Positions 5,513 to 49,869 of a stretch of DNA of 64,000 nt are shown here, in pieces. A model generated the notes under the pieces. The model was not told the DNA's origin, did no database searches, and saw only the letters and a list, made by a program, of their open reading frames with translations. Both the position numbers and the translations under genes were made by a program. The number at the start of each line of letters is the position of its first letter. Positions within the stretch are counted from its first letter, which is position 1. Source of the stretch: an uncultured Pelagibacteraceae bacterium (lineage in GTDB: Bacteria; Pseudomonadota; Alphaproteobacteria; Pelagibacterales; Pelagibacteraceae); NCBI GenBank assembly GCA_902552805.1, contig CACDIC010000002.1, forward strand, positions 1 through 64,000, read 5' to 3'.

Positions 5513-6820
5513 ATGTTAGATCTAATAATCAAAAATGGAAAATGCTATATTGATGGTGGTCTCAAAGAAGTAAGTATAGGTGTTAAGGGTGGTAAAATTG
5601 ATAAGATTGGTGAAATCTCATCTGATGCTAAAGAAACTATTAATGCTAAAGATTTGTTAGTTTTACCAGGATGTATAGATACTCAAACTCATTTCAGAGA
5701 ACCTGGCTCAACAGATACTGAAGATCTTCACTCAGGAAGTAGAGCAGCAATTGCGGGAGGTATCACAGCAGTATTTGAAATGCCTAATACAAATCCACCC
5801 ACGTCCAATATAAAAGAATTTCAAAGAAAATTAGATCTTGCGAAAAATAGAATGTATTGTAATTACGCATTCTATTTTGGTGCAACAGCCGAAAACGTTA
5901 ATCAACTAGCAGAGCTGAAAGACCTAGAGGGATGCTGTGGTATCAAATTATTTGTAGGTTCATCAACAGGTAATCTTTTAGTAGCTCTTGAAGAGGATAT
6001 CGATAAAGTCTTTCAACATTGCTCAAAAATTGTTGCGGTTCATTCTGAAGATGAAGAAATTTTAAATAGGAATAAAAAATTAATTAAAAATGGAGATGTT
6101 CACTCTCATCCTGTGTGGAGAAGTGAGGAGTGTGCCATTTCCTCAACTAGAAGGATTGTCAGAATTGCTAAAAAATATAATAAGAAAGCTCACGTTCTTC
6201 ATATAACTACAAAGCAAGAGATAGATTTTTTATCTCAACATAAAGGCAATATTACTTTTGAAATCACCCCACAGCATTTAACAATTTATGCACCAGATTG
6301 TTATGATAAACTCGGAACTTATGCACAAATGAATCCACCAATCAGAGATAAATCTCATTATGATCGATTATGGTATGCGGTTAAAAATAATATCAATGAT
6401 ACCATTGGGTCAGACCATGCCCCACATTTAAAAGCAAACAAAGACAAAGAATATCCAAATTCACCTTCAGGAATGCCAGGCGTTCAAACACTTATGCCGG
6501 TTATGTTAAACCATGTTAATGAGGGAAAATTATCACTCAATCAATTGATGAACCTGGTATGTGAAAATCCGATTAAAATTTTTGGCATTAAGAATAAAGG
6601 ATTTATTAAAGAAGGTTATGATGCAGATTTTACTATCGTGGACATGAATAAAAAGATTGTAATAAAGAATGAAAATATTGAAAGTAAATGTGGATGGTCA
6701 CCTTTTAATGATGTTGAGTTTAAAGGTACTCCTGTAGCCACTATTATTGCTGGTAAAACAAAAATGAGAGACGGAAAAATTATAGGAGATCCAGAAGGAA
6801 ACCCATTAGAGTTTAATTAA
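5513..6820 (+). CDS. pyrC: Dihydroorotase, alphaproteobacterial class I subfamily
   Basis: Cyclises N-carbamoyl-aspartate to dihydroorotate in pyrimidine synthesis. At 435 aa it belongs to the amidohydrolase superfamily. Motifs seen: DTQTHFREPG (56-65), GIKLFVGSSTG with the lysine expected to be carboxylated, the metal-ligand histidines in AVHSEDE and HVLHITT, and the catalytic Asp in GSDHAPH. The first metal-binding motif, normally HxH, reads Q58-T-H60. From memory this substitution is seen in related alphaproteobacterial dihydroorotases and is not necessarily inactivating. An allantoinase or hydantoinase role is less likely because MPNTNPPT and the GSSTG block fit dihydroorotase. Confidence 0.9.
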   Translation: MLDLIIKNGKCYIDGGLKEVSIGVKGGKIDKIGEISSDAKETINAKDLLVLPGCIDTQTHFREPGSTDTEDLHSGSRAAIAGGITAVFEMPNTNPPTSNIKEFQRKLDLAKNRMYCNYAFYFGATAENVNQLAELKDLEGCCGIKLFVGSSTGNLLVALEEDIDKVFQHCSKIVAVHSEDEEILNRNKKLIKNGDVHSHPVWRSEECAISSTRRIVRIAKKYNKKAHVLHITTKQEIDFLSQHKGNITFEITPQHLTIYAPDCYDKLGTYAQMNPPIRDKSHYDRLWYAVKNNINDTIGSDHAPHLKANKDKEYPNSPSGMPGVQTLMPVMLNHVNEGKLSLNQLMNLVCENPIKIFGIKNKGFIKEGYDADFTIVDMNKKIVIKNENIESKCGWSPFNDVEFKGTPVATIIAGKTKMRDGKIIGDPEGNPLEFN

Positions 6821-7145
6821 GCTTTATTGTAAAGCTATTTACCAACACTACTCCAATTACAATTAAAAATAATCCTAATATTGCCTGCCAAGCTAAAGTT
6901 TGCTTGAAAAAAATATACCCTAGAATTGCAATTGTAAATATTCCAAGACCACTCCAAGTAGCATAAACGATTGCTATTGGAAGCTTGTTCACCACGAAAG
7001 TTAGCAGATAAAAAGCAGTTAAATAAAATATCGCAAGAAAAGTTGTAGGAACTAGTTTAGTAAAATTTTGTGATACTGGTAATAGCATAGTACCAGCTAC
7101 TTCACAAAAAATTGCACCAATTAAAAATAAATAAGTTTTAAGCAC
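6813..7145 (-). CDS. SMR-family small multidrug/guanidinium-type transporter
   Basis: A 110-residue protein with four predicted transmembrane helices, the standard size of small multidrug resistance transporters, which export cationic compounds in exchange for protons as antiparallel dimers in the inner membrane. The essential membrane-embedded glutamate is visible at E15 in GAIFCEVAGT (EmrE E14). A Trp-containing loop and GLGIFTIAILGYIFFKQTL also fit. The substrate class (drug, guanidinium, lipid) cannot be told. Its start overlaps the prpE stop by eight bases, so the two are probably co-transcribed. It converges on pyrC with an eight-base overlap. Confidence 0.88.
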   Translation of the reverse strand: MLKTYLFLIGAIFCEVAGTMLLPVSQNFTKLVPTTFLAIFYLTAFYLLTFVVNKLPIAIVYATWSGLGIFTIAILGYIFFKQTLAWQAILGLFLIVIGVVLVNSFTIKLN

Positions 7146-9039
7146 TTTTAAGAATATTATTTTTGATTAGATCCTCTTTGATCTCATCTAAAATTGTTGG
7201 ATCATCAATGGTTGGAGGCATTTTATATTCAACACTATCAGCGATTTTTCTAATAGTTCCTCTTAAAATTTTACCTGACCTTGTTTTTGGCAATCTTTTA
7301 ATAACAATTGCAACTTTAAAAGCAGCCACAGGTCCAATTTTATCTCGTACCATTTGAACACATTCTTTAGAAATTGTTTCATTATCTTTATCTACTCCTG
7401 CTTTTAAAACAATTAAGCCGATAGGTAATTGACCTTTTAGTTTGTCAGCTATTCCAAGCACCGCACATTCTGCAACTGACTGATGTTCTGATAAGACTTC
7501 TTCTATTGCACCCGTAGATAATCTGTGACCTGCAACATTAATAATGTCATCGGTTCTTGACATGATCCAGATGTAGCCATCTTCATCAATGTGACCCGCA
7601 TCATAGGTTTGATAATAACCTTCATAATTTGACATGTAATTCTCTTTATATCTTTGATCTGCATTCCAAAGAGTTGGAAAAGTTCCTGGAGGCAAAGGTA
7701 ATTTTACTACAATATCTCCCATCTCATTGGGTTTAGCTAAAGTTTGGTCTGATTTTATAATTTTAACATCATAACCAGGTACAGCTTTACAAGCTGAGCC
7801 ATATTTTGTTTTCATCATTTCAATACCAGTGCAATTTGAACTAATCGCCCAACTTGTTTCAGTTTGCCACCAATGATCAATTACTGGAACTTTTAATAAA
7901 TTCTCTGCCCATTTAATTGTATCAGGATCAGCACGTTCTCCCGCAAGAAAGAGGCTTTCAAATTTATTTAAATCATATTTAGAAAAGAATTTTCCCTCAG
8001 GATCTTCTTTTTTAATTGCTCGAAAAGCTGTTGGTGCGGTGAATAAAGATTTTACTTTATAGTCAGAAATTATTTTCCAGAACGCTCCAGCATCAGGTGT
8101 ACCAACAGGTTTACCTTCAAACAATACAGTGGTGCATCCTTTGAATAATGGAGCATAAACAATATAGGAGTGACCGACAATCCAACCAATATCACTTGCT
8201 GACCACCAAATATCATCTGCATCAATATTATAAATATTTTTCATCGTCCATTTTAATGCAACAATGTGGCCACCAATGTCCCTCACGATACCTTTTGGAG
8301 TTCCAGTGGTACCTGATGTGTAAAGTATGTAAGCAAATTCATTTGAATTCATTTCAACACAATCAGTATCTTTGGCATTAGCATGGGCCTCATCCCAACT
8401 TACCTCCATTGGAGCGTTTAATTTGACCTCGTGACCCTTTCTTTGAAATAAAATCATCTTACTAATTTTATGTTGAGCTTGTTTGATTGCTTCATCAACC
8501 AAAGGTTTGTACTCAACAGTTCGTCCAGGTTCAAAACCACATGAAGCGGTCACTAAAATTTTAGCCTTACTATCATCAATTCTGCTTGCAAGTTCATTTG
8601 AAGCAAAACCTCCAAACACTACTGAGTGTATGGCACCAATTCTTGCACAAGCTAGCATTGCAACTACTGCTTCAGGTATCATTGGCATATAAATTATAAC
8701 TCGATCCCCTTTGTTGACGCCTTGATCCTTAAGTGCACCTGCAAACTTCGAAACTTTTGATCTCAATTCCTCGTAAGTGAACCTACTTTTGTTTCCCGTA
8801 ATGGGACTATCATAAATTAAAGCAGTTTTACTTCCTTTTCCTTGGTCAATATGAAAATCTAAGGCGTTGTAACATGTGTTGGTCACTCCATCTTCGTACC
8901 ATTTGTAAAAAGGGGGATTAGATTTATTTAAAATTTTTGTGGGTTTCTTAAACCAAAAGATATCATTAGCAGCCTCTTGCCAAAATTTCTCAGGTTCTTT
9001 AATAGAAAGATCGTAAATTTTGCTGAATTTGTCTGACAT
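7138..9039 (-). CDS. prpE: Propionyl-CoA synthetase (acyl-CoA synthetase)
   Basis: Activates a short acyl group (propionate, perhaps acetate) to acyl-CoA through an acyl-adenylate. The 633-residue ANL-superfamily enzyme shows the ATP-binding loop TSGTTGTPKG (241-250) followed by IVRDIGGH, which favours PrpE/ACSS3 over Acs. It also has WWQTET, DDIINVAGHRLSTG and the C-terminal catalytic lysine K590 in TRSGKILRG. In many bacteria that lysine is acetylated to switch the enzyme off. No methylcitrate-cycle gene is visible here. The SMR gene follows with overlap. The upstream gap to the proteorhodopsin gene holds divergent regulatory sequence. Confidence 0.92.
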   Translation of the reverse strand: MSDKFSKIYDLSIKEPEKFWQEAANDIFWFKKPTKILNKSNPPFYKWYEDGVTNTCYNALDFHIDQGKGSKTALIYDSPITGNKSRFTYEELRSKVSKFAGALKDQGVNKGDRVIIYMPMIPEAVVAMLACARIGAIHSVVFGGFASNELASRIDDSKAKILVTASCGFEPGRTVEYKPLVDEAIKQAQHKISKMILFQRKGHEVKLNAPMEVSWDEAHANAKDTDCVEMNSNEFAYILYTSGTTGTPKGIVRDIGGHIVALKWTMKNIYNIDADDIWWSASDIGWIVGHSYIVYAPLFKGCTTVLFEGKPVGTPDAGAFWKIISDYKVKSLFTAPTAFRAIKKEDPEGKFFSKYDLNKFESLFLAGERADPDTIKWAENLLKVPVIDHWWQTETSWAISSNCTGIEMMKTKYGSACKAVPGYDVKIIKSDQTLAKPNEMGDIVVKLPLPPGTFPTLWNADQRYKENYMSNYEGYYQTYDAGHIDEDGYIWIMSRTDDIINVAGHRLSTGAIEEVLSEHQSVAECAVLGIADKLKGQLPIGLIVLKAGVDKDNETISKECVQMVRDKIGPVAAFKVAIVIKRLPKTRSGKILRGTIRKIADSVEYKMPPTIDDPTILDEIKEDLIKNNILKSA

Positions 9040-9249: not shown

Positions 9250-10020
9250 ATGAAAAAACTTAAAATGTTTGCATTAGCAGCTGTTGCCCTTATCGGTATT
9301 ACAGGTGTTGCAAACGCAGCGACCACTATGTTAGCTCAAGATGACTTTGTTGGGATATCTTTCTGGATAATCTCGATGGGTATGTTGGCTGCTACTGCTT
9401 TCTTCTTCATGGAGAGAGGTACAGTGGCTCCTGGCTGGAAAACGTCAGTAACTGTTGCTGGTCTTGTAACTGGTATTGCATTCATCCATTACATGTACAT
9501 GAGGGATGTATGGGTGACTACTGGTGATTCACCTACAGTGTATAGATACATTGACTGGTTAATTACTGTGCCATTACAGATGATAGAGTTCTACTTAATT
9601 CTAGCAGCTGTAAGAAAAGCAAACTCTGGAATGTTCTGGAGATTGTTAATCGGTTCATTAGTAATGTTAATCGGTGGATATTTAGGAGAAGCTGGATATA
9701 TCAACGCTACACTTGGTTTTGTAATCGGTATGGCAGGTTGGATATACATTCTATATGAAATATTCTCAGGAGAAGCTGGAAAAGCTGCTGCTAAGAGTGG
9801 AAACAAAGCACTTGTTACTGCTTTTGGTGCAATGAGAATGATCGTAACAGTAGGATGGGCTATTTACCCATTAGGTTACATTTTTGGTTACCTAACAGGT
9901 GGAGTAGACGCTGACTCACTAAACGTGATTTACAACTTAGCTGACTTCATTAACAAAATTGCATTTGGTCTAGTAATCTGGGCTGCTGCAGTAAGTTCAG
10001 CTGGTGCAAGAGCAAGATAA
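9250..10020 (+). CDS. Proteorhodopsin, blue-absorbing type
   Basis: A retinal-binding, light-driven outward proton pump of the inner membrane (256 aa, seven helices after a cleavable signal peptide of about 23 residues ending ANA). Key residues, with the usual proteorhodopsin numbering offset by five: H80 (75), R99 (94), proton acceptor D102 (97), spectral-tuning Q110 (105), proton donor E113 (108), D232 (227) and retinal Schiff-base lysine K236 (231). Acid at both 102 and 113 indicates a proton pump rather than a sensor or ion pump. Gln at the tuning site predicts blue absorption near 490 nm, as in open-ocean types. No retinal or carotenoid synthesis gene is in the window. It has its own leader elements and terminator. 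Confidence 0.98.
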   Translation: MKKLKMFALAAVALIGITGVANAATTMLAQDDFVGISFWIISMGMLAATAFFFMERGTVAPGWKTSVTVAGLVTGIAFIHYMYMRDVWVTTGDSPTVYRYIDWLITVPLQMIEFYLILAAVRKANSGMFWRLLIGSLVMLIGGYLGEAGYINATLGFVIGMAGWIYILYEIFSGEAGKAAAKSGNKALVTAFGAMRMIVTVGWAIYPLGYIFGYLTGGVDADSLNVIYNLADFINKIAFGLVIWAAAVSSAGARAR

Positions 10021-17588: not shown

Positions 17589-17736
17589 TTATTTGTAGCG
17601 CAGTTATACAATGCAGTCAATAGGTTGTATTTTGAGTCCGTAATTGAATCAAAACTGAATCAAAACATGAACATCGAAACTATATTTTGTATGCTTGTGG
17701 ATAACTTTAACCAAGGATAGTTTAATTGGATATCAA

Positions 17737-40339: not shown

Positions 40340-40362
40340 CTTTTTTCCACACATGTAAGAAT
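40336..40362 (+). promoter_or_regulatory. Probable promoter of the gcv operon
   Basis: TTGACT (40336-40341) then a 15-base spacer, then an extended -10-like TGT-AAGAAT (40354-40362). Transcription would begin near 40369, right where the riboswitch P1 strand starts at 40371. The fit of predicted start and RNA element is the main support; the spacer is short. Confidence 0.45.
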
Positions 40363-40370
40363 ATCCTGAC

Positions 40371-40528
40371 ACGGGAGAGACTACAGATTATCGTAGCGCC
40401 GAAGGAGCAACCACCCAGGAATCTCTCAGGCAAAAAGGACCGTAACATATTAACTCTGGAAAGAGATTTAATTCTCGCCGAAGGAGCAAAACTCTCAGGC
40501 AAATATACAGATGGGTACAAAGAGTTAA
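40371..40528 (+). ncRNA. Tandem glycine riboswitch upstream of gcvT
   Basis: Two glycine aptamers in series. Aptamer 1 spans 40371-40443, with P1 ACGG/CCGT, GGAGAGAC, CGCCGAAGGAGCAA and ATCTCTCAGGCAAAAAGGACC. Aptamer 2 spans 40450-40528, with an eight-base-pair P1 TTAACTCT/AGAGTTAA, CTCGCCGAAGGAGCAAAA and CTCTCAGGCAAATA. Both show the gcvT-motif core. The 3' strand of the second P1 ends two bases before the gcvT ATG and includes the only Shine-Dalgarno-like AAAGAG. Glycine riboswitches ahead of gcvT and malate synthase are known in SAR11. Confidence 0.97.
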
Positions 40529-40529
40529 T

Positions 40530-41633
40530 ATGGAAACAAAAAAAACATCGCTGTACCAATTACATCAAGATTGTAATGCAAAATTTGTTGAATTTGCAGG
40601 CTATCAAATGCCGATACAATATTCGGAAGGTATTGTAGAAGAACACAAATTCACACGAAATCACTCAGGTATCTTTGATATTTCCCATATGGGTCAGCTA
40701 TTTATTTATGGTGGTGAAGACTTAATCAAAGATTTAGAAAAAATTTTTCCTTTAGATCTTAAAAATTTGAAATTAAATCATTCAAAATACAGCTTCTTAA
40801 TGGACAAAGATGCTGGGATACACGATGATTTAATTATCACAAAAATAAAAGAAGGTTTTTTGATAATCCTCAATGCAGCATGTAAAGATAATGACTTTAA
40901 AATTTTAAAAGAATTACTTGGGGATAAGTACAAAATGGTTATGGATGAAAATAGATCTCTAATTGCCATTCAGGGTCCTAAATCATCAGAAATTCTTAAT
41001 GATGTAATTAATGGTGTGAAAGATCTAAATTTTATGTCTGGAAACTGGTTTACATTTGAAAATCAGAAAGTTTATATTACGCGATCTGGTTACACAGGCG
41101 AAGACGGTTTTGAAATATCAATTGTAAATGATTTTGTACACCAATTAACTAGAGAATTAATCAACAAAGGATCTAAATTGATAGGTCTTGGAGCAAGAGA
41201 TACATTAAGATTGGAAGCAGGTTTATGTCTTTATGGTCATGATCTTGATAAAGACAAAACTCCAGTGGAAGCAAATTTAAAGTGGGCTATTTCAAAAGAA
41301 AGAATCTCTAAGGGAGATTTTATTGGCTCTGACATAATTATTAAACAATTAAATGATGGTGTCAGTAAAATAAGAGTTGGAATTAAACCTGAAGGCAGAA
41401 TTATTGCTAGAGAAAAAACAAAAATATTTAATCAATCAGATGTTCATATTGGAGAAATCACAAGTGGTACATTTGGACCAAGTGTCAATGGACCTGTTGC
41501 AATGGGTTATGTGGAAAATGAATTTTCAAAAAAAAATACTAAAGTATTTTTAGAAGTCAGAGGTAAAAAACATCCTGCAAGTATTTGCAGCTTACCATTT
41601 TATAAAAAAAGTTATGTCAAAGGGGTAAACTAA
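40530..41633 (+). CDS. gcvT: Glycine cleavage system T protein (aminomethyltransferase)
   Basis: Transfers the aminomethyl carbon from H-protein to tetrahydrofolate, giving methylene-THF and ammonia. At 367 aa it has normal length. Motifs include [55 protein letters not shown] and [20 protein letters not shown], all diagnostic and distinguishing it from YgfZ. The start is fixed by the riboswitch ending just before it. Overlaps gcvH by one base. Confidence 0.98.
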
Positions 41634-42013
41634 TGAGTAAAGTAAAATATTCAAAAGAACACGAGTGGATTAAATTAGATGGAGATGTTGCAACAATTGG
41701 TATCACAAAACATGCTACAGAGATGTTAGGTGATATAGTTTTTGCAGAACTTCCAGAAAAAGGTTCTAGCGTAGAGAAAGATGGTACAGCTGGTGTTGTA
41801 GAGTCAACGAAAGCTGCTAGCGATGTATATACCCCTGTGAGCGGTGAAGTAGTTGATACCAATCAAGCTATAGTAGATGATCCATCAAAGATTAATCAAG
41901 ACCCGGAGGACTCAGCGTGGTTTTTTAAACTAAAAATAAAAGATCCATCAGAAATGGATACTTTAATGAATAAAGACGATTACGATAAATTTGCAAAGGA
42001 GACTTCAGCATAA
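41633..42013 (+). CDS. gcvH: Glycine cleavage system H protein (lipoyl carrier)
   Basis: Lipoylated shuttle protein of the glycine cleavage complex. At 126 aa it is full length. The lipoyl lysine is K60 in [12 protein letters not shown], set in the usual hammerhead beta-fold. N-terminus [23 protein letters not shown] is classic. It shares single-base overlaps with gcvT upstream and gcvP downstream, indicating a fully coupled operon. Confidence 0.98.
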
Positions 42014-44883
42014 TGTTACCAAATTCAGAAAAAGATTTTTTAAGAAGACATATTGGTCCTTCAAAAGAAGACCAATCAAAAATGTTAAAAGAATTAGATT
42101 ATAAGTCACTAGATGACTTGATTGATAATACTGTTCCAGAAAAAATAAAGTTTAAAGGTGAACTTAATATTGGTGATTCAAATTCAGAGTATGAGGCATT
42201 AAGAAAGTTACGAGCAATTTCGAAGAAAAATCAAGTCTACTCAAATTTTATTGGTATGGGTTATTATGGAACCTATACACCCTATGTAATTTTGAGAAAT
42301 ATATTAGAAAATCCAGGTTGGTACACTTCCTATACACCTTATCAGCCTGAGGTAGCTCAAGGAAGACTTGAGATGTTATTAAACTTTCAACAAATGATTG
42401 TTGACTTTACTGGGATGGATATTGCCAATGCATCTTTATTAGATGAAGGCACAGCAGCAGCAGAAGCCATGGGTTTAAGTCACAGATTAAATAAAAAAGA
42501 TAGTAATTTAGTTTTTGTTTCTGAAGATTGTCACCCTCAAACAATAAATGTAATTCAAACAAGAGCTGAACCTATGGGTTTAAAGGTTTTAGTCGGTAAA
42601 GAAGATGAAGTTTTAGATAAACTAAAAGAGGATTTAGTTTGTGGAATTTTACAATATCCAGGAACTTTAGGAGATATTAAAGACCCAAGTGAAGCAATTA
42701 GCAAAATTCACAAAAAGAATGGGAAGGCGGTATTAGCTTGTGATCTGTTGGCTTTAGCAAAATTAAAAACACCAAGAGAACTTGGTGCCGACATTGCAGT
42801 TGGAAGCTCTCAAAGATTTGGTATTCCAATGGGATATGGAGGTCCACATGCAGCTTTTTTTGCAACAAAAGACGAATTTAAAAGATCAATGCCCGGAAGG
42901 ATTGTCGGTGTATCAGTTGATAGACATGGTAATAAAGCTTACAGATTATCATTACAAACAAGAGAGCAACATATCAGAAGAGATAAGGCGACGAGTAATA
43001 TTTGTACTGCCCAAGCTTTATTAGCAATTGTGTCAGCAGCGTATGCTATTTATCATGGCCCGGATGGAATTAAAAATATTTCGGAAAGAGTGTCTCAATT
43101 AGCAAAAAGTTTTGCTGATAAAATAAAACAATCTGGATACGAGCTTTATTCGAATAATTTTTTTGACACTGTAACGATTATTACCAAAGAAAAGACTGAT
43201 CAAATTTATAAGAATGCTCTGAATCAGAGAGTTAATATTCGAAAAGTAAATTCTGAAATGCTTGCTGTTTCATTTGATGAGAGAAAAAATGTATATAGAG
43301 TAAATCAATTATTAAAAATTTTTAATGCAGCAGAATCAATAAAAAAAGAAGATCCATCAGTAAGTTTACCCAATCTTCCAAAAAATTTATTAAGAACTTC
43401 AAAATATTTAGAACATCCAGTTTTTAACTCATATCATTCCGAAACTGAAATGCTTAGATATTTAAAAAGATTAGAAGATAAAGATATAGCATTGAATAGA
43501 ACTATGATTGCACTTGGTTCTTGTACAATGAAATTAAATGCTGCTGCCGAAATGATCCCAATATCATGGAAAGAATTTGCAGAACCTCATCCGTTTGTCC
43601 CAATTGAACAAATGGAAGGTTTTAGAGATTTATTCACTGACCTAAAAAATTGGTTGCGTTCTATAACTGGTTTTTCAGGTGTTTCTTTGCAACCTAATGC
43701 AGGTGCTCAAGGTGAGTATGCGGGCTTAATGGTTATTAGAAAGTATCATTTAGATAGAGGTGAGGCTAATCGTAATATATGTTTAATTCCAAGTTCAGCA
43801 CATGGTACTAACCCAGCAAGTGCACAAATGGTTGGAATGAAGGTGGTAGTTGTTAATTGTGATAAAGAGGGAAATGTTGATTTTGATGATTTAAAGAAAA
43901 AAGCTGAACAACATTCAGAAAATCTTGGGGCACTAATGGTAACTTATCCATCTACCCATGGAGTATTTGAAGAAAAAATAACTGATATCTGCGAGTTAGT
44001 TCACAAACATGGTGGGCAAGTGTACATGGATGGAGCAAATTTAAACGCCTTAGTTGGAGTTGCAAAGCCTGGAAATTTTGGGCCAGATGTTTGTCACATT
44101 AATTTACATAAAACATTTTGTATTCCACATGGCGGGGGAGGACCAGGTATGGGACCAATTGCTTGTAAAAGACATTTACAAGTTTATCTACCTAATCATC
44201 CAGTGATTAAAGATTGTGGACCAACATCTGGCATTGGAGCAGTCTCGGCAGCTCCTTGGGGTAGTTCAAGTATTCTATCAATCTCTTGGATGTACATTAA
44301 AATGATGGGATCAGCAGGGTTAAAGCTTGCTACTGAAGTAGCAATTCTAAATGCAAATTATATTGCTCATAGACTAAAAGATCACTTTCCAATTTTGTAT
44401 AAAGGATCAAATGGAAATGTTGCTCATGAATGTATTATTGATATTAGAAATATTAAATCAGAGACAGGAGTAACAGAGGAAGATATTGCAAAAAGATTAA
44501 TAGATTACGGGTTTCATGCACCAACTATGTCATGGCCAGTAGCTGGTACAATGATGATAGAGCCAACTGAAAGTGAGGGTTTGTCAGAACTCGATAGATT
44601 TTGTGATACTTTAATTAAGATTAAAGAAGAAATTGAAAAAATTAAATCAGGTGAATTTGATAAAATAGACAATCCAATAAAAAATGCTCCTCACACGGAC
44701 AGCGAACTAGCTTCTGATGATTGGACGCATAAATATTCAAGAGCAGAAGCTGCTTATCCAGCAAAATTCTTAAGAGCTAATAAATTTTGGCCTCCAGTTG
44801 CAAGAGTAGATAATGTTTATGGTGACAAGAATATATTCTGTACTTGTCCAAGCATTGATGAATTTAAAGAAGATGCAGCTTAA
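42013..44883 (+). CDS. gcvP: Glycine dehydrogenase (decarboxylating), P protein, single-chain
   Basis: PLP enzyme that decarboxylates glycine and loads the aminomethyl group on GcvH. The 956-residue product is the fused single-chain form (as in E. coli), rather than split gcvPA/gcvPB. The PLP lysine is K700 in INLHKTFCIPHGGGGPG; the N-terminal half carries EDFLRRHIGPS-like start, and FIGMGYYGTYTPYVILRNILENPGWYT. Last gene of the riboswitch-controlled operon; the L protein (lpd) is not in this window. A separate FAD-oxidase group starts seven bases on. Confidence 0.98.
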   Translation: MLPNSEKDFLRRHIGPSKEDQSKMLKELDYKSLDDLIDNTVPEKIKFKGELNIGDSNSEYEALRKLRAISKKNQVYSNFIGMGYYGTYTPYVILRNILENPGWYTSYTPYQPEVAQGRLEMLLNFQQMIVDFTGMDIANASLLDEGTAAAEAMGLSHRLNKKDSNLVFVSEDCHPQTINVIQTRAEPMGLKVLVGKEDEVLDKLKEDLVCGILQYPGTLGDIKDPSEAISKIHKKNGKAVLACDLLALAKLKTPRELGADIAVGSSQRFGIPMGYGGPHAAFFATKDEFKRSMPGRIVGVSVDRHGNKAYRLSLQTREQHIRRDKATSNICTAQALLAIVSAAYAIYHGPDGIKNISERVSQLAKSFADKIKQSGYELYSNNFFDTVTIITKEKTDQIYKNALNQRVNIRKVNSEMLAVSFDERKNVYRVNQLLKIFNAAESIKKEDPSVSLPNLPKNLLRTSKYLEHPVFNSYHSETEMLRYLKRLEDKDIALNRTMIALGSCTMKLNAAAEMIPISWKEFAEPHPFVPIEQMEGFRDLFTDLKNWLRSITGFSGVSLQPNAGAQGEYAGLMVIRKYHLDRGEANRNICLIPSSAHGTNPASAQMVGMKVVVVNCDKEGNVDFDDLKKKAEQHSENLGALMVTYPSTHGVFEEKITDICELVHKHGGQVYMDGANLNALVGVAKPGNFGPDVCHINLHKTFCIPHGGGGPGMGPIACKRHLQVYLPNHPVIKDCGPTSGIGAVSAAPWGSSSILSISWMYIKMMGSAGLKLATEVAILNANYIAHRLKDHFPILYKGSNGNVAHECIIDIRNIKSETGVTEEDIAKRLIDYGFHAPTMSWPVAGTMMIEPTESEGLSELDRFCDTLIKIKEEIEKIKSGEFDKIDNPIKNAPHTDSELASDDWTHKYSRAEAAYPAKFLRANKFWPPVARVDNVYGDKNIFCTCPSIDEFKEDAA

Positions 44884-44889
44884 TAATTA

Positions 44890-46128
44890 ATGAAGATTGC
44901 TGTTGTTGGCTCAGGCATATCAGGATTAAGTGCTGCATATTACTTATCAAAAAAACATCATGTAGATCTTTTCGAGAAAGAAGATCGTTTCGGTGGTCAC
45001 TCTCATACAATTGATTTATCATTTGGTACAAAAAAAGTTCCTGTTGATATAGGTTTTATTGTATTTAATTACGCAACTTACCCAAATTTAATTAATTTTT
45101 TTGAAGAGAATAATATTGCAATTGAAAAAAGTGATATGTCTTTTTCTGTTTCAGTTGAAAAATCTTCATTTGAATATTGCGGTCGAGGATTAAATGGAAT
45201 TTTTTCGAATAAAGCTAATCTGTTTAATTTAAGATTCCTCAAAATGTTTTTTGATATAATAAAGTTTTACAAAAAATGTGATAATATAAAAAAAATTGAT
45301 CAAGAGACTACACTTGGTAATTATTTGAGAAAGGAAAATCTTTCAAAAGAGTTCATCAACTATCATTTGATACCGATGGTCTCAGCTATATGGTCAATGC
45401 CACCAAGTGCTAGCAGTCAAATGCCGTTGAGATTTTTCTTAAAGTTTTTTCAAAATCATGGTTTGTTTAAATTAAAAAATAGACCCCAGTGGTACACTGT
45501 ATCAAATCGAAGTAGGACTTATGTTCAAAACATTATTTCAAAAATCAGCGGTGAACATTTCAAAAATTATCCAATCAAAAAAATTAAAACAAAAACAACA
45601 GGTATAGATTTATATTATGGTGGAGAAAGTGAATATTTTGGATACGATAAAGTTGTTTTAGCAACACATGCAGATGAAGCTTTATCAATAATTGATAATC
45701 CAACCGACCAAGAAAAGAATGTGCTTTTAAATTATAAGTATAAGGAAAATATTGCCTATATTCATACCGATGAACAAGCTATGCCAAAAAATAAAAAAGC
45801 TTGGTGTTCATGGAATTCATCAATCAAAAAGGATGAAATAGAAAAAAATTCAATTACATATTGGTTAAATTTATTACAAAACCTTAAATGCGATGAAAAT
45901 ATTTTTCTTACCTTAAATCCTTATTTTAAAATTGATGAGAAGAAAATTTTAAAAAAAGTAAGATTTACACATCCATATTTTGATCAATCTGCACTTAATT
46001 TTCAAAGTCAGCTTACAAATTTACAGAATAAAAGAAATATTCTTTATTGTGGTAGTTATTTTGGTTACGGTTTTCATGAAGATGGAATAAAATCATCTAT
46101 TGAAATGCTTAAAACCCTTAATGACTAG
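44890..46128 (+). CDS. FAD-dependent amine-oxidase-like protein (COG2907 type)
   Basis: A 412-residue flavoprotein with N-terminal Rossmann motif AVVGSGISGLSAAYYLS (GxGxxG at 7-12) and VDLFEKEDRFGGHSHT, the usual amine oxidase/desaturase opening. The motif YCGRGLNGIFSNKANL and a C-terminal YCGSYFGYGFHEDGIKSS match the COG2907 group. In other bacteria this group is adjacent to DUF1365 and Cfa-like genes, as here, and has been linked to fatty-acid desaturation in furan fatty acid synthesis and to the singlet-oxygen response. That link is established-context inference; the true substrate here is unknown. Overlaps the DUF1365 gene by eight bases. Confidence 0.85.
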   Translation: MKIAVVGSGISGLSAAYYLSKKHHVDLFEKEDRFGGHSHTIDLSFGTKKVPVDIGFIVFNYATYPNLINFFEENNIAIEKSDMSFSVSVEKSSFEYCGRGLNGIFSNKANLFNLRFLKMFFDIIKFYKKCDNIKKIDQETTLGNYLRKENLSKEFINYHLIPMVSAIWSMPPSASSQMPLRFFLKFFQNHGLFKLKNRPQWYTVSNRSRTYVQNIISKISGEHFKNYPIKKIKTKTTGIDLYYGGESEYFGYDKVVLATHADEALSIIDNPTDQEKNVLLNYKYKENIAYIHTDEQAMPKNKKAWCSWNSSIKKDEIEKNSITYWLNLLQNLKCDENIFLTLNPYFKIDEKKILKKVRFTHPYFDQSALNFQSQLTNLQNKRNILYCGSYFGYGFHEDGIKSSIEMLKTLND

Positions 46129-46879
46129 TTGTATATATAATGGCGCTGTAATTCACAAAAGATTTAAACCAAAGATACATTTTTTTAAGTACAGGGTATT
46201 TTCACTTTTAATTGATCTTTCTGAATTAGAAAAATTAGATAAAACGATTAATTTTTTTTCATACAATAAATTTAATTTAATTAGTTTTTTTGATAAAGAT
46301 CATGGAGATAGAGATGGATCACTCTTAACCGATTGGGTTAAAAAAAATCTTAGACAAAATAATATTAGTAGTGAAAATATTAGAATTAAACTTTTATGTT
46401 ACCCAAGAATCTTAGGATATGTTTTTAATCCATTAAGTGTTTTTTATGTGTACAATAATAACAATGATTTGATATCCATATTATATGAAGTCAAAAATAC
46501 TTTTGGTGAGCAACACACTTATGTTTTTAAAGTAAAAAATGACAATTTATTGCAACACAATTGTGAGAAAAAATTTCATGTTTCACCATTCATTGAAATG
46601 AATTGTAGTTATTTTTTTAGAATTTTAAAACCTGCAGATAAAATCTCAGTAATCATAGATCAATATCAATTAAACGAAAAAATATTATATGCTTCTCAAG
46701 ATGGGAAAAGAAAAGATTTTACAACTTCAGAGTTAATTAAATCATATTTAAAACATCCCCTAATGACGTTTAAAATTATTGCAGCGATACATTTTGAAGC
46801 GTTTAAATTATGGACCAAAGGAATAAAGTTTATCCAAAAAAAATTGAAAATAAGAAACAACATATCTTTTGAAAATTAA
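46121..46879 (+). CDS. DUF1365 family protein, possible lipid oxygenation enzyme
   Basis: A 252-residue DUF1365 protein. Start chosen at the ATG at 46121, giving MTSCIYNGAVIHKRFKP, the family's standard opening (SxLYxGxVxHxRxxP); it overlaps the previous stop. Other family motifs: YRVFSLLIDLSEL, LLCYPRILGYVFNPLSVFYVY and the NTFGEQHTYVF region. DUF1365 is associated with furan fatty acid formation in Rhodobacter by neighbourhood and genetics as I recall; biochemistry is thin. Its last base is shared with the Cfa-family gene. Confidence 0.88.
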   Translation: MTSCIYNGAVIHKRFKPKIHFFKYRVFSLLIDLSELEKLDKTINFFSYNKFNLISFFDKDHGDRDGSLLTDWVKKNLRQNNISSENIRIKLLCYPRILGYVFNPLSVFYVYNNNNDLISILYEVKNTFGEQHTYVFKVKNDNLLQHNCEKKFHVSPFIEMNCSYFFRILKPADKISVIIDQYQLNEKILYASQDGKRKDFTTSELIKSYLKHPLMTFKIIAAIHFEAFKLWTKGIKFIQKKLKIRNNISFEN

Positions 46880-48057
46880 TGTCCTTAAATAGACTTTCAG
46901 ACAAACTGGTTTTTAACATATTAGCGGGAATAAATATTGGAAATCTAGAAATTACAAATTATCAAGGAGAAGTTTTTAAATTTGGAAATCCTCAGGATAA
47001 TTTAAAGGCTAAATTGAAAATTAAAAAACCAAATTTTTCTTTCAATCTTATAAAGGGTGGCAGCATTGGTTTTGCTGAGTCTTACATGAGAGGAGAATTT
47101 GAAACTGATAATTTATCCAATCTCATTGAAATAACAGCTCGAAATATCAAAATCATATACAAGTTTTCAGGTTTACTCGATTTTCCAATTATAAATTTTT
47201 TAAAAGGTATCTTTATAAAAAATACAAAAAATAGAAGTAAGGAAAATATTGCAAAACATTATGACTTAGGAAATGATTTTTTTTCTTTATGGCTTGATGA
47301 AACTTTAACTTACTCAAGCGGAATTTTTAGTGAGACCACTAAAGATCTTTCTGATGCACAAAATAACAAATATCAAAAAATGATAGATTTAATAAAACCA
47401 AACCATGGCGACAGGGTTTTAGAAATCGGATGTGGCTGGGGTGGTTTTGCAGAATATTTAGGAAAAAAATATGATGTAAAATTAGATTGTATTACTATTT
47501 CAAAAAAACAATTTGAATATGCAAAAAAAAGAATTCATAATTGTGGTTTAAATGAAAAAGTAAATATCGAAATAAAAGATTATAGAGATTTAAAAAATAA
47601 ATATAATTCAATAGCGTCCATAGAAATGATTGAGGCAGTAGGGCAAAATTATTTGGAAGGTTATTTTAAAACTATTAAGAAAAACCTTTCTAAAAATGGT
47701 AGGGCTGCCATTCAAGCAATTACAATAGATGATAGTTTATTTGATAGATATAAAACGAAACAAGATTTTATTCAAAAATATATTTTTCCAGGAGGATTTT
47801 TGCCAAGTAAAAATAGCTTAAACAAATATGTTTCAGACAATGGTTTAACAATAAAGTCTTACGACTCATATGCTGATCATTATGCAAATACATTAGCTAT
47901 TTGGAAAAATGAATTTAATAGAAAATGGGATCTCATTAAAAAACAAGGTTTTGATTTAACTTTTAAAAGAATGTGGGAGTTTTACCTATCTTATTGTGAG
48001 GCTGGATTTAAATCGAAAAATATTGATCTGATACAATTTTCAATTCAAAATAAATAA
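46879..48057 (+). CDS. Cfa-family SAM-dependent fatty-acid methyltransferase with altered active site
   Basis: A 392-residue member of the cyclopropane fatty acid synthase family. Lipid/substrate region KHYDLGNDFFSLWLDETLTYSSGIF (127-150), SAM motif LEIGCGWGGF (181-190). Compared with E. coli Cfa, the catalytic Glu (239) and Tyr (317) are kept as E252 and Y335, but the residues for C139 and H266, which with them hold bicarbonate, are S147 and Q279. The enzyme may therefore methylate an acyl chain without closing a cyclopropane, like the methylases of methyl-branched or furan fatty acid pathways. Position behind COG2907 and DUF1365 genes agrees. Confidence 0.85.
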   Translation: MSLNRLSDKLVFNILAGINIGNLEITNYQGEVFKFGNPQDNLKAKLKIKKPNFSFNLIKGGSIGFAESYMRGEFETDNLSNLIEITARNIKIIYKFSGLLDFPIINFLKGIFIKNTKNRSKENIAKHYDLGNDFFSLWLDETLTYSSGIFSETTKDLSDAQNNKYQKMIDLIKPNHGDRVLEIGCGWGGFAEYLGKKYDVKLDCITISKKQFEYAKKRIHNCGLNEKVNIEIKDYRDLKNKYNSIASIEMIEAVGQNYLEGYFKTIKKNLSKNGRAAIQAITIDDSLFDRYKTKQDFIQKYIFPGGFLPSKNSLNKYVSDNGLTIKSYDSYADHYANTLAIWKNEFNRKWDLIKKQGFDLTFKRMWEFYLSYCEAGFKSKNIDLIQFSIQNK

Positions 48058-48070
48058 ATAACGGGGTCTT

Positions 48071-48619
48071 GTGAGCAAAATAATAAACTTAAGATCAATT
48101 TTATTGATAATCTCTTTATTCTTAATTACAAACTGCTCAAATAATAGTGATATGAAACCAGAGGATTTTAAAGGTAAAGAACCAAGATTAATCATAGAAA
48201 ATTACTTGTCAGGCAATGTTAAAGCTTGGGGAGTTCTTCAGAATAGATCCGGAAAAGTTACTAGACAATTTTCAGCAGATTTAGATGGTAAGTGGGATGG
48301 TAAGCAATTAATTCTTGATGAAAAATTTAATTGGGATGACGGTGAAGTACAAACTAGGCAATGGCAAATTACTAAAATAGACGACAACAATTATGAGGGA
48401 ACTGCTGGAGACGTAGTTGGTAAAGCCAAGGGATATTCATATGGTCCCGCATTTAAATTTGAGTATGTTTTATTAGTTCCAGTAAAAGGGAAAGAAATTA
48501 AGATTACTTTTGATGATTGGATTTTTAAACAGGATGATCGAGTAGCAATTAATAGAGCTACAATGACTAAATTTGGTATTAAAGTTGCTGAATTGACAGT
48601 GGTGTTTGTAAAAGATTAA
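48071..48619 (+). CDS. DUF3833 family lipoprotein
   Basis: A 182-residue predicted lipoprotein starting at a GTG (GGGG eight bases upstream). The signal sequence ends with LITNC, so C22 is the likely lipidation site. The mature part shows the DUF3833 pattern: YLSGNVKAWGVLQNRSGKVTRQF, WDGKQLILDEKFNWDDGE and FDDWIFKQDDRVAINRATMTKFG. Function unknown; it is regularly seen next to the Cfa/DUF1365/COG2907 group in other proteobacteria and here closes that run, 13 bases behind the methyltransferase. Confidence 0.85.
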   Translation: MSKIINLRSILLIISLFLITNCSNNSDMKPEDFKGKEPRLIIENYLSGNVKAWGVLQNRSGKVTRQFSADLDGKWDGKQLILDEKFNWDDGEVQTRQWQITKIDDNNYEGTAGDVVGKAKGYSYGPAFKFEYVLLVPVKGKEIKITFDDWIFKQDDRVAINRATMTKFGIKVAELTVVFVKD

Positions 48620-49377
48620 TCTTTCTTTTGATATTTAGTTAATTTTCCAACTAAACCAAAATAAATCTTACTTGGGAGAAAACTTAAGATTTTCAGTACA
48701 ATAGTTAATGATTTTGGAAAATGAATTTCAAAAGTCTTTTTATTTACTAAGCCATCATATATTTTTTCAGCCGCATATTCAGTAGTCTTTAAAAAAGGCA
48801 TTTTAAAATCATTTTTATCTGTCATTGGAGTTTTGATAAAACCTGGAGATACCAAACATACTCTCACATTTGATCGACCAAAATCAAAATATAGACTTTC
48901 TGCTAAATTATTAAGAGCAGATTTTGAAGGTCCGTATCCGGTTGAATTTGGTAAACCTCTATAACCAGCTATTGATGAAACAATAGTAATTGTCCCACTT
49001 TTCTTGTTTTTAAAATATTCTTCGACTGCTTTGATGGTATTCAATGTCCCAAAAAAATTAATTTTGAACACTTCCTCAATTTGTTCAACATCAATATCCC
49101 TTTCTTTTTTTGGATTCCATGTGCCAGTGGAAAAAAAACAAATATCTATATTTTCAAATTTATTTTTAATTTTTTCAAAAACCTCTTTGCATTTTGATTT
49201 ATCAGTCACATCTAATGGAAATGGACTTATATTTTCATGATTGACTGAAATCTCATTAAGAAGATTCTCACGTCTGGCTGAAATAGCAACATTCCACCCC
49301 TCATTAGCAAATTTTATTGCAAGAGCTTTACCGATTCCGGTACTTCCACCAGTAATCCAAATTGTTTTTTTATTCAT
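48616..49377 (-). CDS. Short-chain dehydrogenase/reductase
   Basis: A 253-residue classical SDR. Cofactor motif WITGGSTGIGKA (7-18), catalytic Ser at about 135 in VSSIAGY, Y148 and K152 in TGYGPSKSAL. Arg residues after the first strand (SARRENL) favour NADP(H). It converges on the DUF3833 gene with a four-base overlap and is divergent from tspO. SDR genes commonly accompany the adjacent COG2907/DUF1365/Cfa cluster in other species, so a role in the same lipid pathway is possible. Substrate unknown. Confidence 0.88.
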   Translation of the reverse strand: MNKKTIWITGGSTGIGKALAIKFANEGWNVAISARRENLLNEISVNHENISPFPLDVTDKSKCKEVFEKIKNKFENIDICFFSTGTWNPKKERDIDVEQIEEVFKINFFGTLNTIKAVEEYFKNKKSGTITIVSSIAGYRGLPNSTGYGPSKSALNNLAESLYFDFGRSNVRVCLVSPGFIKTPMTDKNDFKMPFLKTTEYAAEKIYDGLVNKKTFEIHFPKSLTIVLKILSFLPSKIYFGLVGKLTKYQKKD

Positions 49378-49401
49378 TATCTAAAGATGTATAATACTTA
49401 A

Positions 49402-49869
49402 ATGTTAAAAAATAAATTTTTATCATTCATACTTTTTTTTATTATCACATTTTCAGCCTCATTTATTGGTAGTTTAGTCACAATTAATTTAAAAGACCCT
49501 TGGTATTCTCAATTAGTCAAATCAGATTTTAACCCACCTGACTGGGTGTTTGCACCTGTTTGGACAACGCTTTACTTAATGATGACATTTGCTATTTGGT
49601 TTTTTTGGCATAGTAAAAATAGAGACATGAACACGATTTATATTTATTTTATTCACATTATATTTAATACAACTTGGAGTATTGTTTTTTTTGGATTACA
49701 CCAAATTTTTTTTGCTTTGATTGTTATGGTAATCCTAATTGGTTTAATAATTACTTTGATAATAAGATATAAGCGTGTCAATTTTGTGAGTTATTATTTA
49801 ATGATTCCCTATTTACTTTGGTGTTGCTATGCATTATTTCTGAATATTAACTTACTAATATTAAATTAA
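49402..49869 (+). CDS. tspO: TspO/MBR family membrane protein
   Basis: A 155-residue five-helix membrane protein. The signature SDFNPPDWVFAPVWTTLYLMM and the late IPYLLWCCYALFLN match TspO (the tetrapyrrole/cholesterol-site motifs). In alphaproteobacteria TspO represses photosynthesis genes and binds tetrapyrroles under oxygen and light; in SAR11 its role is not known. Divergent from the SDR gene and shares one base with the DAO-family gene that follows. Confidence 0.88.
   Translation: MLKNKFLSFILFFIITFSASFIGSLVTINLKDPWYSQLVKSDFNPPDWVFAPVWTTLYLMMTFAIWFFWHSKNRDMNTIYIYFIHIIFNTTWSIVFFGLHQIFFALIVMVILIGLIITLIIRYKRVNFVSYYLMIPYLLWCCYALFLNINLLILN

Follow-up and report, generated by a model that had tools for sequence, protein, structure and literature searches.

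In a window of 64,000 nucleotides from an uncultured Pelagibacteraceae bacterium of the SAR11 order (contig CACDIC010000002.1, assembly GCA_902552805.1), four closely packed genes quite likely specify a furan fatty acid pathway, and they lie directly downstream from the glycine cleavage genes gcvT, gcvH and gcvP. The first gene, ufaD (44890-46128, + strand), encodes a flavoprotein (COG2907 in the sequence-only reading of this DNA) with Pfam matches to NAD_binding_8/Amino_oxidase, predicted to be a methyl-alkene acyl desaturase dependent on flavin adenine dinucleotide (FAD). It precedes ufaO (46121-46879, +), a DUF1365 gene (PF07103, 1.7e-77) whose product is predicted to be an O2-dependent, furan-forming oxygenase. 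Next come ufaM (46879-48057, +), for a Cfa-family S-adenosylmethionine (SAM) methyltransferase (CMAS, 8.8e-83), and a gene for a DUF3833 protein (48071-48619, +; PF12915, 3.7e-61; GTG start), a frequent neighbour of such clusters. By the open reading frame (ORF) coordinates, ufaD and ufaO overlap by 8 bases and ufaO and ufaM by 1 base, and 13 bases separate ufaM from the DUF3833 gene; the start of ufaO was taken as the ATG at 46121, the listed ORF beginning further upstream at a TTG (46100). A sequence-only reading of this DNA had described four coupled genes with overlaps and a 13-base gap, and both the ORF coordinates and the Pfam families bear this out exactly. None of the three core proteins (flavoprotein, DUF1365 protein and Cfa-like protein) has an NCBIfam match above the curated cut-off.

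The chemistry of the pathway has been worked out in other bacteria (all papers are cited here from excerpts). In Rhodobacter sphaeroides, UfaM adds a methyl group to cis-vaccenoyl chains, giving 11Me-12t-18:1, UfaD forms the 10t,12t diene of the methylated chain and UfaO, a DUF1365 protein, makes the furan acid, the oxygen coming from O2 (PMC7380195). RPA2569, RPA2571 and RPA2570 of Rhodopseudomonas palustris are homologues of UfaM, UfaD and UfaO with the same activities (PMC7380195), and Halomonas ufaM gives rise to methylated alkene in E. coli (PMC12089945). All three core proteins are present in the window. They correspond to the enzymes encoded by ufaM (RSP2144) and ufaD-ufaO (RSP1091-1090) of R. 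sphaeroides (PMC7380195), where ufaM lies apart from the other two (PMC12089945), whereas all are adjacent in the window. The ufaD-ufaO-ufaM order is also that of R. palustris, as judged by locus numbers (RPA2571-2570-2569-2568; PMC7380195), and of Rhodopseudomonas pseudopalustris, which belongs to the same genus as the tested strain and whose UfaD, UfaO and UfaM are 34% (E 2e-95), 41% and 41% identical to those of the window. Further SAR11 genera and proteobacteria repeat the ufaD-ufaO-ufaM order, so the arrangement is not due to chance. The SAR11 enzymes would perform the same reactions as the Rhodobacter and Rhodopseudomonas set, and their sequences make a methylated alkene and a furan the likely products. 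Homology to the tested proteins and the tree described below likewise favour the earlier suggestion that a methyl-branched or furan-type acid, rather than a cyclopropane acid, is the likely product. A further relative, FCMT-1 of C. elegans (compared here by description), turns cis-vaccenic acid into a methyl-branched acid; it differs in being an animal gene, and the excerpts of its paper mention no furan partners (PMC10876521).

Residues of UfaM and UfaO

Alignment of the window UfaM with E. coli Cfa (phmmer against 6bqc, and MAFFT with the K-12 protein, both in agreement) pairs S147 with C139, E252 with E239, Q279 with H266, I281 with I268 and Y335 with Y317. The sequence-only reading had the Cys and His exchanged in just this way, and the Glu and Tyr kept. 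The MAFFT alignment further places A253 at H240 and E249 at G236. These equivalences come from sequence alignment in ungapped motifs; superposition of the predicted UfaM model on 6bqc (Z 39.6, root-mean-square deviation 1.9, 335 residues) gave no residue pairs. The two proteins share the fold, the SAM motif and the equivalents of Glu239 and Tyr317, and differ by the changes of Gly236 to Glu, His240 to Ala, His266 to Gln and Cys139 to Ser, as well as by the ufaD and ufaO neighbours found in the window. In E. coli Cfa, the catalytic bicarbonate is contacted by Glu239, His266 and Tyr317 (PMC11387697); this trio is incomplete in the window UfaM, where Gln279 takes the place of the His.

The changes had been presented as a feature of this particular protein. 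Comparison of aligned sequences indicates instead that they are the known signature of the UfaM family. The combination Glu-Ala-Gln at positions 239/240/266 (E. coli numbering) occurs in all of 84 named UfaM-type loci (the best 80 listed plus 4 plasmid loci), in each of the 40 SAR11 sequences that extend into ufaM, the window's among them (one more locus, the 41st, stops short of the gene), and in 7 of 30 class-control loci, the latter being the best-scoring ones, with the Cfa of the window's own genome among them. A ufaO gene adjoins 6 of these 7 loci and none of the remaining 23, 21 of which read C-E-H-H at 139/239/240/266. As the UfaM set was picked by E239, A240 and Q266, the sole independent mark is E236: Glu occupies this position throughout the UfaM-type sequences (131 of 131) and is absent from the Cfa-type ones (0 of 24; 23 Gly, 1 Ala). 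Position 139 is Ser in 120 of the 131, Ala in 7, Cys in 3 (L085, L086 and L142) and Gly in 1. Loss of Cys139 was rejected as the key change, Cys being present in 3 and Ala or Gly in 8 of the 131 sequences; because some UfaM proteins keep Cys139, the changes at 240 and 266 and the Glu at 236 make better marks. We defined E236/A240/Q266 as the UfaM mark set, and the window UfaM carries all three. Plant N-methyltransferases of the same superfamily have a Glu at what, by motif reading, is the corresponding position. The excerpts of PMC12089945 and PMC7380195 contain no earlier statement of residue marks (the term "active site" has no match in either), and the plasmid records examined annotate UfaM-type genes under the name of cyclopropane synthase.

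A tree of 84 rows chosen from the sequences in hand (IQ-TREE, quick mode, whose support values need care; letter make-up is uneven in many rows) separates UfaM from Cfa with a Shimodaira-Hasegawa-like approximate likelihood ratio (SH-aLRT) support of 99, the UfaM proteins of the window and of R. pseudopalustris both falling on the UfaM side. The 24 SAR11 UfaM rows included (of 40) are all on this side and group together (95) with L255, from another alphaproteobacterial family; the 11 rows from gcv-linked SAR11 clusters form a single clade (support 100). Among the Cfa-type sequences, L231 is very near SAR11 Cfa although its genome is listed in another family; it reads Gln266 but keeps His240 and Gly236, and is possibly a stray SAR11 contig.

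That UfaM might simply be a cyclopropane fatty acid synthase of the ordinary kind, its substitutions being harmless, is very improbable. The shared fold and the conserved Glu239 and Tyr317 equivalents speak for such an enzyme, as do the cyclic acids also seen in E. coli overexpressing Halomonas ufaM (PMC12089945), a host that has its own cfa; yet it is hard to square with the tree split, with the loss of the bicarbonate-ligand His and the gain of a Glu, with the ufaD and ufaO neighbours, and with a separate, ordinary Cfa elsewhere in the same genome, in which Cys and His are retained. A system for 10-methyl branched saturated acids is an extremely unlikely alternative. A Cfa-like enzyme beside an FAD protein is indeed the layout of the actinobacterial operons, but the enzymes of that study were chosen for a conserved bicarbonate site (PMC7791843), which is changed in the window UfaM. 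The furan pathway is favoured, too, by the additional DUF1365 gene and by the relatives in proteobacteria.

In the furan pathway as proposed, the chain would carry a cation after methyl transfer by UfaM. In Cfa, a proton of the new methyl group goes to the bicarbonate base, and the ring closes. UfaM lacks the His that helps to hold the bicarbonate and has an extra Glu (E249) three residues before the conserved one; loss of the one and gain of the other make it plausible that a chain proton is lost instead, giving an alkene. The cation would then shed a proton from the neighbouring chain carbon, not from the new methyl, to yield the methyl-branched trans alkene 11Me-12t-18:1 and no ring, a product switch in which E249 may have a role. 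UfaD, with its FAD, would then produce the conjugated methyl diene by taking off two hydrogens, and UfaO would insert one O atom from O2, closing the furan ring. By reacting with radicals and singlet oxygen, the furan would protect the membrane, which may be its physiological role in SAR11.

The AlphaFold model of UfaO (predicted local distance difference test score, 92.7) has no Foldseek match at E <= 0.001. Its best VIA-align scores (Z 7.0) are with lipid-binding-like and nitrobindin-like beta barrels and with the spirocyclases OlmO/OssO; since this likeness may reflect a common arrangement alone, we claim no cofactor. Twenty-five residues are invariant in 27 UfaO sequences, including H11, R13, D59, H60, R95, N125, K149 and H223 (numbering begins at the codon at 46124). 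The conservation makes H11, D59, H60, R95, K149 and H223 candidates for an oxygen-activating site. As for the DUF3833 protein, its N-terminus is lipoprotein-like, with a signal ending in Cys22, so this protein may sit at the membrane. We take RSP1088 to be the DUF3833 gene of R. sphaeroides. In that organism, deleting RSP1087, RSP1088 or RSP1089 singly left the fatty acids unchanged (PMC7380195).

Occurrence and neighbours of the cluster

A sample of 247 genomes of the order was surveyed, with genera and families designated by codes (g1-g6, f2). UfaM-type matches, counted up to an E value of 2e-75 (the match after that stands at 7e-57), were obtained in 180 genomes, and DUF1365 scored above the cut-off in 178. 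Cross counts made by hand from the two listings give UfaM-type alone in 3 genomes (G070, G082 and G087), DUF1365 alone in 1 (G206, a fragment) and neither in 66, so both occur together in 177 of the 181 genomes having either. All 11 single-contig genomes hold both ufaM and ufaO. In 40 SAR11 regions read, 23 from g1, g5 and g6 and 17 from other genera, the ufaD-ufaO-ufaM order is kept as far as the contig extends.

These figures bear on the possibility that the pathway stops at a methyl-branched unsaturated acid (11-methyl-18:1 or the diene), UfaO having some other substrate or being nearly idle. Among the best 80 UfaM loci listed, ufaD and ufaO are both present in the fetched stretch at just 28, and plasmid stretches of Pelagibacterium and Roseicitreum carry UfaM without either gene; with so many UfaM lacking these partners, some bacteria seem to benefit from the methylated alkene by itself, although the partners may lie elsewhere, as in R. 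sphaeroides. In SAR11, by contrast, ufaD and ufaO remain closely linked in a fixed order, and DUF1365 and UfaM-type proteins occur together almost throughout. We consider the restriction to a methyl-branched acid improbable and prefer the complete furan pathway.

The 67 UfaM-negative genomes comprise 43 of the 53 in family f2, 22 in the window's genus and 2 elsewhere in the window's family. Absence from f2 looks real at least in G002 and G004 (100% and 99% complete). In the window's genus, 13 of the 22 negatives match gcvP, on contigs that stop within gcvP, within ufaD or early in ufaO; the other 9 lack any gcvP match. These negatives therefore look like assembly gaps, and true loss of the cluster within the genus is not supported. 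One locus (L135) shows a gcvP-to-SDR junction near the contig end (SDR, short-chain dehydrogenase/reductase). A UfaM fragment of G087 (C16:8546-9517), 87% identical to the window UfaM in a 64% complete genome of another family, is probably a misplaced contig. The sequence-only reading had also connected the unusual lipids with a proteorhodopsin-bearing cell. The window does have a rhodopsin gene (9349-9993), but rhodopsin is found in 220 of the 247 genomes, with or without the cluster, and we discarded it as a discriminating partner.

Other neighbours vary. In all 8 regions of g2, g3 and g4, the gene immediately before ufaD encodes a photolyase, which fits a role in light stress. At the best 80 UfaM loci listed, a photolyase match occurs in 51, an RpoE or ChrR match in 14 and at least one of these in 59; gcvH or gcvP occurs in none of the fetched stretches. 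Rhodobacterales are over-represented in this list, a bias that comes from the query. In the window, the cluster is followed by a gene for an SDR-family oxidoreductase on the opposite strand (48616-49377, -; adh_short, 1.2e-44), a frequent companion that also stands beside the cluster in Azospirillum, Paracoccus and Pseudoalteromonas, and by tspO (49402-49869, +; TspO/MBR, PF03073, 1.4e-38), present too in other SAR11 regions and in the Paracoccus zhejiangensis cluster. The arrangement on an Azospirillum lipoferum plasmid (L262) comes near that of the window, with ufaD-ufaO-ufaM-DUF3833 and an opposite-strand SDR gene, one NTF2-like gene lying between. It differs in having a divergent sigma factor gene and a ChrR anti-sigma gene upstream, and no gcv genes in the stretch.

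The glycine riboswitch and the gcv genes

The genes upstream of the cluster, on which the sequence-only reading was silent, are gcvT (40530-41633, +), gcvH (41633-42013, +) and gcvP (42013-44883, +; Pfam GDC-P, 2.3e-188), the first two being named from their translations and the riboswitch context. A glycine riboswitch aptamer (40362-40452, +; Rfam RF00504, 64.9 bits, E 3.4e-11) stands at the head of the predicted operon, and only 6 bases separate gcvP from ufaD. In g1, g5 and g6 (the genus of the window plus two more), gcvP adjoins the cluster on its upstream side in 22 of the 23 regions, with gaps of -1 to 14 bases, and the riboswitch precedes gcvT in all 10 of those regions that were scanned (11 of 11 with the window). 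None of the 17 regions of other genera has a gcvP match beside the cluster. At six f2 loci (L098, L100, L101, L102, L103 and L104), roughly 1 kb ahead of ufaD, there is a GcvT-family gene whose product shares 24-25% identity with the window GcvT. Both a glycine riboswitch before gcvT and the SAR11_0636 small RNA have been described for 'Candidatus Pelagibacter ubique' (PMC2704228); the latter is found in the window at 17623-17712 (RF01827), and the two features together support a SAR11 assignment for the window. Among Red Sea reads, those of the SAR11 glycine riboswitch continued for the most part into gcvT (PMC5069720), and the head of such an operon is therefore expressed in nature; the excerpts of these two papers are silent on the ufa genes and on what lies beyond gcvP.

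The sequence-only reading had noted that such a neighbourhood occurs in the singlet-oxygen response governed by RpoE and ChrR. The light-stress idea gains from the photolyase neighbours; the ChrR part does not carry over here, the ChrR cupin (PF12973) having no match in the window's own genome, which is 87% complete, so that the gene could lie in the missing part (a gene for an extracytoplasmic function (ECF) sigma factor was not searched for). In the order at large, PF12973 scores above the cut-off in 27 of the 247 genomes, mostly in short frames with one cupin; G032 has a 232-residue frame with two. In R. sphaeroides the products rise on loss of chrR (PMC7380195), whereas the window presents gcvTHP and the glycine riboswitch. 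In the window's lineage the ufa genes are probably read from the same transcript as gcvTHP under the riboswitch, in replacement of the RpoE/ChrR control known elsewhere, a co-transcription suggested by the gap sizes alone. The link to glycine might, at a guess, be that gcvTHP yields methylene-tetrahydrofolate, which can feed SAM.

In SAR11, genes tend to keep their order. The gcv-ufa arrangement could be a mere inheritance from a common ancestor, kept in compact genomes without any regulatory meaning, the ufa genes being served by internal promoters, and we give this explanation only slightly less than an even chance. The ufa genes of G028, placed behind a permease-like gene, and the photolyase genes upstream in other SAR11 genera agree with it. 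It accounts less readily for near-zero gaps kept in three genera although UfaD outside the window's genus, in the gcv-linked genera, is about 57-59% identical to that of the window, and for the absence of any terminator-like site on the + strand of 44300-49500.

Joined to riboswitch control, the observations can be drawn into a wider reading. In the window's genus and two sister SAR11 genera, the furan genes would have left singlet-oxygen control for the 3' half of a glycine-riboswitch operon, so that a membrane antioxidant is made in step with the glycine-derived one-carbon supply, a source of SAM methyl groups. The furan fatty acids that accumulate in fish would have in SAR11 one of their main oceanic sources, and UfaM would have swapped the His-held bicarbonate base for Glu at 236, shifting proton loss from methyl to chain and turning a ring former into an alkene former. 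Taken as a whole this is tentative and rather unlikely to be right in every part. Several points weigh against the furan pathway and its riboswitch control as proposed above. The comparison proteins, those of R. pseudopalustris, are relatives of the biochemically tested enzymes, and identity is just 34-41%. The residues are tied to the product through clade membership, and two Cfa-type sequences share single marks (L231 with Gln at 266, L254 with Ala at 240). Promoter-like matches number 35 versus 31.6 by shuffling, which is uninformative, and internal promoters are possible. In f2, 43 of 53 genomes have no UfaM-type match, yet 32 of these 43 have rhodopsin. Finally, G028 has the cluster without adjoining gcv genes, and neither a riboswitch nor a gcvP match was found in it.

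The layout in G028 (L115) places a 290-residue permease-like gene (5914-6786) before ufaD (6787-8037) with a 0-base gap; ORFs resembling, by eye, 5-oxoprolinase subunit genes precede the permease-like gene, where gcvTHP would be. The cluster can therefore live without gcv.

Literature searches limited to an open-licence library surfaced no report of a SAR11 furan fatty acid. Term matching in PMC3160333 found no mention of cyclopropane or fatty acid, and in PMC13198564 none of cyclopropane, DUF1365, gcvP, furan or fatty acid. The enzymes were already known; new are the host and the probable regulation, and the points of interest are this host, how widely SAR11 has the genes and their place behind a glycine riboswitch. 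For the Cfa family, the E236/A240/Q266 set offers a simple way to separate UfaM from cyclopropane synthases, together with an idea of how the product is switched. Methylated furan fatty acids are membrane antioxidants, and very abundant ocean bacteria may make such lipids under unusual control. If so, SAR11 would be a candidate for a large share of the furan fatty acids in the sea and would possess a lipid shield against light damage.

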